Source of the DNA: an uncultured bacterium
GTDB lineage: Bacteria; Cyanobacteriota; Vampirovibrionia; Gastranaerophilales; Gastranaerophilaceae
Length of the DNA: 55,125 nucleotides
Assembly: GCA_902774905.1 (NCBI GenBank)
Contig: CACYKF010000019.1
Location: 1 to 55,125 of the forward strand
Direction of reading: 5' to 3'
Each line of letters opens with the position of its first letter. Position 1 is the first letter of the stretch. Both the position numbers and the translations under genes were made by a program. Below the pieces are notes generated by a model. It saw nothing but the letters and a program-made list of their open reading frames with translations, did not search any database and had not been told where the DNA came from. Below, one piece after another: positions 20,478-55,125 of this stretch.

Positions 20478-20569
20478 TAACCAATATCCCTCTCGCTTCA
20501 AGTGTGATTTTAACTTAAACACACGATATTGTAAAGTAAATATTAATAAATATTGTTATTACTTTAAAA

Positions 20570-20896
20570 GCGGGAGAGGGTGTGATACAAGACCCTCTTT
20601 TAAACCCGCCGTTTTATTTTGTCACTGCGACAATCCGATTTATTGCCTATCTCCCTCGGGGAAGAGTAATTTTTCTTAATGAGCGGTAGCGAATTTAGAA
20701 AAATGAGAGAGGGTTTGTAGTTAACACCCTCTCCTGTCAACTTCGTTGACATCCTCTCCGTAGGAGAGGTAGAAAACCTATCTCCCCTGCGGTGAGAGTA
20801 ATTTTTCAATGTGAGAAATTTATTTTGAACATTTGAAAAATGAGAGAGGGTTAGGTTTATTATCAATTTGGTGCGTATAAACGCACCCTACTCACT
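20570..20896. repeat. Dispersed repeat, copy 2 (stacked palindromes)
   Basis: About 327 bp closely matching 53961-54241, with an internal expansion here. It contains hairpins such as gtcaac-ttc-gttgac and ggtgcg-tataaa-cgcacc, and repeated ctctcc/gagagg words. It lies 3' of the pilin-like gene at 21116. An open frame across it is an artefact of the repeat. Confidence 0.85.
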
Positions 20897-21115
20897 GCGT
20901 TTGCTCGTAATGACATGTTATTGTGTCAGACAATTGCCTGACATACACCCTCTACCAACGGGAGAGGGTAGAAAATCACTTTGAGCAATAGCGAAAAGTA
21001 GATTTTCGGGTGAGGTGGCAATCCCGTTAGGGGTGAGATCCTGAACCAAGTTCAGGATGACATTGTACGACCCCTCACCCCACCCCTCTCCCTCGAAGAG
21101 GGATGCAAACTACTA
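20897..21115. repeat. Gene-free tract of short palindromes
   Basis: Continues the repeat region up to the pilin stop codon. It includes gagagggta/accctctc words, the palindrome atcctgaa-ccaag-ttcaggat (21038-21058, a variant of 935-955) and ctcaccc/ctctccc strings. No coding sequence was recognised. Confidence 0.6.
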
Positions 21116-22297
21116 CTACTCCAAATCACCGACACAAACAGCCCTAATGCTCGAATTGTTGCGGTGGTTGCTGATCCTGTACGAGGTCGAACTGTCGAAG
21201 GTCCGGCGGTACGCGTAGGTGGCACCTCCCTCACTACCTACCCACAAGGAGTAACAAGAGCCTAAGCCCGAAAAACTCTCAGGTAGTTGGCTGAAATCAG
21301 GTGTGCCTTCGCAGCGTTGTGTTGAATCATTACAATTTGATTCTCCATAAACTTTCTTGGCTAATTCATACAAGTCATCTTCAGTCGGGAGATTTTGGAC
21401 TCCGCCACATTTTTCCACAGCCGCAGCCCAGTAATCATTGTCATAAGGGCATGATTTAATCCCCAGTGATTCTTTTTTTGCTTCACAATCCGCTTTACTC
21501 ATCGGAGTTGTGATTTCCTGCGGTTCCCATTTGTCAAACTGACGACGTTTTGCTAACTTTTCTTCTTCTGTTAATTCATATTCTTCTTTCCCGTTTCCTC
21601 CTAAAAAAGTCGCAAGTGAAGCATTTGTTGCAGGTTCGACCGCTCCGTCATGAAACACTACAGGGAAAATATCTCCCATACTGCCATTTGTTACTTTACA
21701 AGTGGTATTGGCACTGATTGTCGTTGTACCCTCAGCACACTGTACCTCTTTATTTGGCGGAGTAGGTCCGTTTACGTCTATAAACCCTATACAATTTGCT
21801 AATTTATCTGACAACATCGCAGTAGTTATTACATTCCCAACCCCAACACCACAACCTTTTGCGTTCGGATTAAACGCAACAATTGCGCCGTCAGCGAATG
21901 AAAAGAACAAAAAGTTTTCAACAGAAAAACTTTTCATATCCGCACTATAAGGACTAAATAAATTTGCACCTTTGACGTTGCCGTATTTGCCTAAATAAGT
22001 CTGACCTGCCAAAGTGTTGTTAAACAGTCCGCAAAAATTGTACTGACCACCTGCGAGAGTATCGCTTTTGCAAGTCGCATCATCATTAATTTGAGTTAAA
22101 AGCGAATAATCCAAATCATACTGTGCCTGCGCTCCGATTGCCGCCTGATTTAGAGTAGATAAAGATTTTTTAAACTGTGCTGTAAACTTTTTAGAGTTAG
22201 AATTTTGCATCAAAAGAGGAATAGTAATCGCCGCAACAACACCAATGATGCCAATTGTAATCATTATTTCTGCCAATGTAAAAGCGTACTTTTTCAT
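21116..22297 (-). CDS. Pilin-like surface protein with variable lectin-like C-terminus
   Basis: A prepilin leader MKKYA precedes FTLAEIMITIGIIGVV (mature Glu+5, helix about residues 6-26). The ~370-residue exported part ends in a domain with LPTEDDLYELAK, LWVGSE and RAVCVGDLE, resembling DUF1566/FGE-type C-type-lectin folds. It is close to the gene at 54243 over the body but differs at the tip. The tip (21146-21223) is 58% GC by hand count, and 23 of 26 codons end in G or C, unlike the AT-rich rest. The ATG at 22297 (GAGGA 8 nt upstream) is preferred over one 15 nt earlier. It is divergent from an XRE regulator. Role inferred: adhesin or minor pilin. Confidence 0.8.
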   Translation of the reverse strand: MKKYAFTLAEIMITIGIIGVVAAITIPLLMQNSNSKKFTAQFKKSLSTLNQAAIGAQAQYDLDYSLLTQINDDATCKSDTLAGGQYNFCGLFNNTLAGQTYLGKYGNVKGANLFSPYSADMKSFSVENFLFFSFADGAIVAFNPNAKGCGVGVGNVITTAMLSDKLANCIGFIDVNGPTPPNKEVQCAEGTTTISANTTCKVTNGSMGDIFPVVFHDGAVEPATNASLATFLGGNGKEEYELTEEEKLAKRRQFDKWEPQEITTPMSKADCEAKKESLGIKSCPYDNDYWAAAVEKCGGVQNLPTEDDLYELAKKVYGESNCNDSTQRCEGTPDFSQLPESFSGLGSCYSLWVGSEGGATYAYRRTFDSSTSYRISNHRNNSSIRAVCVGDLE

Positions 22298-22329
22298 GCT
22301 TATTATCCTCATTTATTAAACTCATGGTT

Positions 22330-53907: not shown

Positions 53908-53957
53908 TATACATGAAAATTTATAAACTGCAATCAGGCATGCAACCATATATTTTG

Positions 53958-54241
53958 AAAGCGGGAGAGGGCGTGATACAAAACCCTCTTTTAAACCCGC
54001 CTTTTTTATTTTGTCATTGCGATTATTAGCAAAGCAATCCGATTTATTGCCTATCTCCCCTGCGGGGAGAGAAATTTTTCAATGTGAGAAATTCATTTCG
54101 AACATTTGAAAAATGAGAGAGGGTTTGTAGTTAATACCCTCTCCTGTCAACTTCGTTGACATCCTCTCCAAAGGAGAGGTAGAAAATCTATCTGGTTAGG
54201 TTTATTATCAATTTGGTGCGTATAAACGCACCCTACTCACT
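53958..54241. repeat. Dispersed repeat, copy 3
   Basis: About 280 bp matching 20570-20896 with a shorter middle: gcgggagaggg start, tcaacttcgttgaca hairpin, and ggtgcgtataaacgcacc near the end. No gene in it. It ends at the stop of the pilin-like gene on the minus strand, the same relation as copy 2. Confidence 0.85.
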
Positions 54242-54242
54242 A

Positions 54243-55125
54243 CTATTGTTTTTCCAAATCTCCGACACAAACAACCCTGTACGTATTACTCTTACGAGTT
54301 CCACCATTAGATAAAACGCTAACTCTTGTCCTTGTAGCATCAAATCTAAGTCCTACAGCATTACTACTGGTCTCACTCCCAGACCATAAACGATGAATAG
54401 AACCACCTAAATCTGAAAGATTATCTGGCAGTTGACTAAAATCAGCGGTGCCGGTGCAGTTTTTTGTATTGTCGTCACATGTAGGATATACTTTTTTGGC
54501 TAATTCATACAAATCATCCATTGTAGGCAAGTTTTGTACCCCGCCACATTTTTCCACAGCCGCAGCCCAGTAATCATTGTCATAAGGGCATGATTTAATC
54601 CCCAGTGATTCTTTTTTTGCTTCACATTCGGCTTTTGACATCGGGGTTATGATTTCTTGCGGTTCCCATTTGTCAAACTGACGGCGTTTTGCTAACTTTT
54701 CTTCTTCGGTTAATTCATATTCTTCTTTCCCGTTTCCGCCGAGAAAAGCCGCAAGTGAAGCGTTTGTTGCAGGTTCGACCGCGCCATCATGAAAGACCAC
54801 AGGAAATATATCCCCCATTGAACCGTTTGTCACTCTGCAAGTTTTATTTGCAACGATTATTGTCGGGACTTCTGCACATTGTACTTCTTTATTTGGCGGT
54901 GTCGTGCCGTTTACGTCTATAAACCCGATACAATTTGCTAAATTGTTTGTCAATTTTTCATTTGTTAATGTCTGACCGACACCGATCCCGCAATTCTTTG
55001 CGTTCGGATTAAATGCGACTATCGCACCGTCGGCAAACGAAAAGAACAAAAAGTTTTCAACAGAAAAACTTTTCATATCTGCATTATAAGGACTAAATAA
55101 ATTCGCACCTTTGACGTTGCCGTAT
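54243..55125 (-). CDS. Pilin-like surface protein, second copy (5' end beyond window)
   Basis: Runs off the right edge: the frame stays open to 55125 with residues matching YGNVKGANLFSPY of the gene at 21116. The visible ~294 residues share most of the body (SFSVENFLFFSFADGAIVAF, DIFPVVFHDGAVEPATNASL, LAKRRQFDKWEPQEI). They diverge after VEKCGGVQNLPT, keeping LWSGSE and VVCVGDLE. The tip codons here mostly end in T or A, in contrast with the GC-rich tip of the first copy. An internal ATG at 55076 is not the start. Confidence 0.85.
   Translation of the reverse strand, partial: YGNVKGANLFSPYNADMKSFSVENFLFFSFADGAIVAFNPNAKNCGIGVGQTLTNEKLTNNLANCIGFIDVNGTTPPNKEVQCAEVPTIIVANKTCRVTNGSMGDIFPVVFHDGAVEPATNASLAAFLGGNGKEEYELTEEEKLAKRRQFDKWEPQEIITPMSKAECEAKKESLGIKSCPYDNDYWAAAVEKCGGVQNLPTMDDLYELAKKVYPTCDDNTKNCTGTADFSQLPDNLSDLGGSIHRLWSGSETSSNAVGLRFDATRTRVSVLSNGGTRKSNTYRVVCVGDLEKQ

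Follow-up and report, generated by a model that had tools for sequence, protein, structure and literature searches.

The stretch of DNA analysed here (the window) spans 55,125 nucleotides, corresponding to C19:1-55125 in a genome assembly (G000) that totals 1.99 Mb over 51 contigs, and carries a gene for a type-IV-pilin-like protein of 398 amino acids (Table 1). A prepilin cleavage/methylation N-terminus was recognized in this protein by TIGR02532 (19.6 bits, over the cut-off of 16.3), and PF07963 matched slightly short of its cut-off (E 3.5e-4, 20.5 bits against 21.2). In a preliminary description, the C-terminus of this pilin had been described as GC-rich and codon-shifted, which was confirmed: positions 21146-21223 have a GC content of 57.7%, compared with 33.4% in the whole window, and 23 of their 26 codons end in G or C, the highest score among 15,371 windows of 26 codons taken from the long reading frames of the stretch (mean 6.9, SD 2.6). 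In the same way, GC3 rises from 33% in the body of the gene to 73% in its variable part. It had been proposed on this basis that the tip could be diversified by a diversity-generating retroelement (DGR), in which a reverse transcriptase (RT) and a template repeat (TR) supply new sequence to a variable region (VR).

Table 1. Coordinates and strand of the pilin genes, variable regions and repeats discussed in the text (window positions unless a contig or locus is named)
Feature	Coordinates	Strand	Remark
Target gene, type-IV-pilin-like protein with C-terminal variable domain	21116..22312	-	ORF, prepilin N-terminus FTLAEIMITIGIIGVVAA
VR1, variable region, 136 bp	21125..21260	-	Ungapped match to template G000:C8:46141-46276
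VR1 3' end, candidate initiation-of-mutagenic-homing site	21125..21147	-	23 nt identical to TR
Paralogous pilin, same domain, not a target of the C8 template	54243..55124	-	Continues beyond the end of the window, where the assembly has a gap
VR2, pilin variable region beside RT	C36:16903-17041		Match to TR
Dispersed intergenic repeats	1-154, 20563-20954, 53945-54022; L027:8051-8220

The window contains neither an RT nor a template, as had been stated, and both lie on other contigs of this genome. When the variable stretch of the window was searched for at the DNA level, an 81% match was obtained on contig C36, directly after an RT gene, and an 85% match at C8:46141-46276. The latter is an AAC-rich repeat outside any pilin gene (SWYNLWSGSEKSANNAYNRNFNSSNSNRNNNNRNNSSFRAVCVGD), located between the end of contig C8 and an avd gene, and constitutes the TR. 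VR1 differs from it at 20 positions, 16 of which are template adenines, so that 16 of the 42 adenines and 4 of the 94 other bases are changed (Fisher P 1.2e-6). In VR2, 15 of the 16 mismatches fall on template adenines (15/42 adenines and 1/98 other bases changed; P 2.3e-8), and the P value pooled over both regions is 1e-13, sites being treated as independent in this test as in those of the single VRs. The stretch of 21116-21300 originally indicated as hypervariable does include template-related DNA, the latter being slightly narrower and ending 6 nt ahead of the pilin stop codon. A homing role for the 23 nt that VR1 shares with the TR at its 3' end may be proposed by analogy with known DGRs.

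A horizontally acquired domain, or a quirk of codon usage without any targeted mutation, would also give a tip whose GC and GC3 are high relative to the remaining gene. However, this reading is refuted by the comparison of TR and VRs and retains practically no probability, given that the tip shares its skeleton with a TR of this genome and that the differences are adenine-specific in VR1 and VR2 alike. It is likewise extremely improbable that the tip was produced by gene conversion among pilin copies in the manner of Neisseria, without reverse transcription. Many pilin paralogues of the genome do have tips that are unrelated although their bodies are nearly identical, and conversion or tip swapping probably also occurs; nevertheless, such a process would not place nearly all differences on the adenines of one non-pilin copy, and it requires donor copies of the VR alleles, none of which is present in the genome assembly, whereas every VR is explained by a single AAC-rich template accompanied by avd and RT.

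Exactly one RT was found in the genome (C36:14744-15415), which matched PF00078 over the cut-off (E 3.3e-18) and the reverse transcriptase family phrog_1423 (E 1.6e-99), and which contains the motifs IGNLTSQ and YVDD. Its closest solved structure is 8ub7, which we take to be the DGR RT of Bordetella phage BPP-1; profiles, IGxxxSQ-type motif and best solved relative together indicate, at the sequence level, an RT of the DGR group. The accessory protein Avd is represented by a 114-residue ORF adjoining the TR on C8, which was recognized by PF22296 (bAvd, 49.9 bits, over the cut-off of 40) and by phrog_3206, annotated as 'Avd protein of DGR' (E 1.5e-21), with NF033474 reaching 54 bits, short of its cut-off of 80. 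The search for an RT and for a template over 80% identical with mismatches mostly at adenines, which the preliminary description had set as its test, was therefore positive on both counts and additionally revealed Avd. Together with 3'-terminal VRs in protein genes, a TR outside the target gene, a shared 3' end and differences almost restricted to adenines, these findings support the DGR hypothesis and make it almost certain that 21125-21260 is a remote VR of a chromosomal DGR comprising TR and avd (C8), RT (C36) and at least two targets, VR2 and VR1. When the template was searched against the whole genome, no VRs were found beyond these two, the tips of the C11, C17 and C26 pilins being cut off at contig ends.

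The composition of the tip is explained by the template itself, which contains 13 AAC codons and has 40 of its 42 adenines at codon positions 1 and 2. When their adenines are replaced, AAC codons become NNC and never stops, hence the GC-rich, C-ending codons of VR1; the earlier suggestion that adenine mutagenesis had left NNC-type codons and raised GC thus agrees with a TR whose rewritten codons are mostly AAC. If any base were allowed at each TR adenine, about 10^23.5 protein variants are computed, and a stop could arise at one codon only. VR2 carries a 3-nt in-frame insertion within the AAC run, and it was observed across loci that TR/VR indels inside this run are nearly all multiples of three, from 3 to 15 nt (VR2 = L027:7904-8042, L155, L157, L151, L180, L182). 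As a separate observation, the interval from TR to avd contains a 12-bp hairpin with a T run after it (L028:4576-4612, minus strand), which is terminator-like for the template RNA. A perfect 18-nt palindrome occurs 12 nt downstream of VR2, but it belongs to a dispersed intergenic repeat, and no hairpin was found 3' of several VRs of a sister genome (G060); an obligatory hairpin 3' of the VR is thus unsupported across VRs. A further candidate TR/VR pair, the L090 repeats, was rejected since their differences are not adenine-biased.

In this assembly, the RT and TR-avd lie on separate contigs, in the orders glmM - RT - pilin(VR2) - contig end on C36 and contig end - TR - avd - rpsJ - rplC on C8. 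In all seven relatives that were read across the junction, glmM is followed by rpsJ within about 2 kb, and the last 130-150 bp ahead of rpsJ are conserved in most of them. Because glmM adjoins rpsJ in relatives, the C36 end can be joined to the C8 end, and the two are most simply interpreted, from synteny and from a sister genome, as the edges of a single insertion that separates glmM from rpsJ, with the order RT - pilin(VR2) - gap - TR - avd. With the cassette placed there, VR1 represents a remote target. Additionally, no relatives of the pilin domain were found in viral contigs, where the best RT was just 36% identical, so that nothing points to a copy carried by phages.

Related genomes of the genus, from uncultured rumen bacteria, extended the view of the system, the same C-terminal domain being present in 13 of 46. 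Ribosomal proteins and UMP kinase gave matches that were not diagnostic of the phylum. VRs were counted under a strict test (an alignment of 110 bases or more, non-adenine mismatches not above 10%, and at least 65% of mismatches at adenines), and the counts per genome come from fragmented metagenome assemblies. In G060 (rumen isolate RUG13924), TR, avd and RT are 93.7%, 84% and 84% identical to their counterparts in G000, and the single TR accounts for 11 pilin tips passing the strict test, with changes at 187 of 429 adenines against 30 of 1108 other bases. A VR-bearing pilin tip, TR and avd follow one another in this genome, and the RT lies on another contig beside the matching pilin 5' end, an order that supports RT - pilin(VR2) - gap - TR - avd as a single locus. 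The G060 cassette is not located at glmM-rpsJ, and therefore the cassette changes place between species.

A second sister genome, G020, carries two different TRs, the second one followed by avd, which account for 15 and 6 strict VRs, at least 21 in total, further tips being borderline. The bases changed were 312 of 616 adenines versus 53 of 1447 others for one TR, and 144 of 284 versus 33 of 575 for the other. No RVT_1 match was found in the G020 assembly, from whose bin the RT may be missing. Each of the two distinct templates (L143, G020:C36; L231, G020:C101) was seen to serve a separate set of pilin tips. G007 has a pilin target in the classic order pilin-avd-TR-RT, and in G043, of the same order, the target carries Lcl_C domains (E 1.8e-27). 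VR-like tips were also detected in G002, G030 and G015, in whose assemblies no matching RT or TR was found; these may be orphan VRs or assembly losses. The VR-bearing pilin of G002 is split over two reading frames (L214:3247-4429) and may be decaying or misassembled.

G002, from roe deer rumen, also provides the orthologous locus of the target pilin, which is 91.5% identical to window positions 25545-21279 and 96% identical to 20633-16929. Between these flanks, its tip is unrelated to that of the target pilin, the final two blocks of 75 nt being 33-47% identical, and its codons are ordinary, with 14 of 46 ending in G or C. Therefore, divergence between the species is concentrated in the tip and, as the G002 tip is not template-like, at least part of this difference reflects tip exchange rather than adenine rewriting. 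The boundary with the syntenic G002 pilin is sharp and lies immediately upstream of VR1 (L219:4264-4429 against window 21116-21278).

Within G000, the paralogous pilin of the window has the frame residues LWSGSE ... RVVCVGDLE in common with the target pilin and a different tip between them, as had been noted. This tip shows ordinary codons (10/46 G/C-ending), and no template-like DNA was matched in it. Three further paralogues (L009, L010 and L011; G000:C13, C1 and C27) and the target gene have bodies 76-91% identical and unrelated tips, one of which is a long repeat protein, a pattern as if tips were swapped between copies. Dispersed intergenic repeats, some with GTCAGGCAATTGCCTGAC palindromes, directly follow several pilin genes and also occur at contig ends.

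These observations bear on the unlikely, though by no means negligible, alternative that VR1 is a fossil whose rewriting in trans has ceased, being left over from past DGR writing or taken from a VR-bearing pilin through recombination. It would account for the four non-adenine changes in VR1 against one in VR2, for the loss of 3 nt and the Trp-to-Cys change immediately upstream of VR1, and for the different tip at the orthologous G002 locus, which implies that whole tips are exchanged between pilins. On the other hand, RT, Avd and TR seem to be intact, VR1 agrees with the template over its 3' 23 nt, and most scattered VRs in G060 and G020 have few non-adenine changes, consistent with trans action throughout the genus. 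While a past transfer from TR to VR follows from the sequence comparison, present activity of the DGR and trans homing at VR1 are inferred, and the last rewriting of VR1 may be old because of its four non-adenine differences.

According to the DGR explanation, the TR would be transcribed and its RNA copied by the RT with Avd, template adenines being misread at random during copying. The mutated cDNA would then home to, and replace, the 3' ends of pilin genes sharing the 3' end of the template, the targets in this genome being at least VR2, beside the RT, and VR1, which would be written in trans. Altered tips could be displayed via the pilus of the cell or a related machinery; four T2SSE-family pilus assembly ATPases were found over the cut-off, and a prepilin peptidase candidate fell slightly short of it (E 6.4e-4). 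The variable C-terminal domain of the pilin-like product is probably exposed, and its variation most likely changes what the cell binds, assuming that the domain binds ligands. On a broader scale, it appears somewhat favoured that, in this rumen genus, pilin tips form a dispersed and expanding family rewritten by a single trans-acting retroelement, with one or two templates serving 11 to more than 20 genes in each genome, and that whole tips also move between bodies, providing each cell with a large and changeable repertoire of surface binders.

A C-type-lectin fold is frequent among DGR targets and is not obligatory. The resemblance to this fold that had been proposed for the tip is plausible and weakly supported: family members gave weak matches to Lcl_C (E 0.0075) and InvE_AD (E 0.0033), the C-terminal domain matched intimin weakly (E 0.057), and hhalign was also weak (39% over 41 columns). 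On the other hand, no known fold matched the AF2 model of the domain (pLDDT 72, with much of the variable part below 50), and the AlphaFold model of the full-length pilin was poor (pLDDT 45).

Our literature search found no prepilin or type IV pilin as a DGR target, which is weak evidence given that it covered neither subscription papers nor preprints. Each component is known, namely DGRs, remote targets and pilin targets, and it is their combination and scale that look new, adding prepilin-type proteins to the known DGR targets and indicating template-driven diversification of many scattered genes per genome. If active, the element would offer a natural setting in which to study how many sites can be located and rewritten from one template RNA, and how rumen bacteria vary the binding of their surface filaments. 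A large DGR survey states that targets far from the RT would escape it (PMC8144416), and VR1 is a case that it would overlook. In Thiohalocapsa, 15 targets were assigned to nine DGR loci (PMC10907252), and higher target counts were reported in one survey for atypical cases, in which non-adenine differences occur (PMC6642488).

The set of RT, Avd, TR and 3'-terminal VR found here corresponds to that of the Bordetella phage BPP-1 DGR, in which the VR belongs to a receptor-binding gene; however, the present system is chromosomal, has the order RT-VR-TR-avd instead of VR-avd-TR-RT, and acts on remote targets and on pilins. In the Treponema denticola DGR (TvpA and remote paralogues), a single RT and a single TR serve 2 to 7 scattered targets (PMC4891356). 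This layout and the adenine-biased differences recur in the present system, and the C-terminal domains of the T. denticola targets are surface-exposed, as those of the pilins probably are. In contrast, the T. denticola targets are lipoproteins, whereas those described here are pilin-like, and a sister genome carries at least 21 strict VRs. In cyanobacterial DGRs, C-type-lectin paralogues bear remote VRs at their 3' ends (PMC7517822), and Trichodesmium (T. erythraeum) has 18 TR/VR-homologous loci with two DGR RTs (PMC8867640); remote VRs at target 3' ends are thus common to these systems and to ours, although their targets are mostly cytosolic, signalling-linked proteins rather than prepilin-type ones. 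In a review (PMC12632263, citing Macadangdang et al.), the DGRs of Bacteroides, which are also gut bacteria, are described as diversifying the tip pilins of type V pili. As described there, pilin tips are the targets in both cases, but those of Bacteroides are type V lipoprotein pilins, whereas here type-IV-like prepilins are involved and one template serves many targets.
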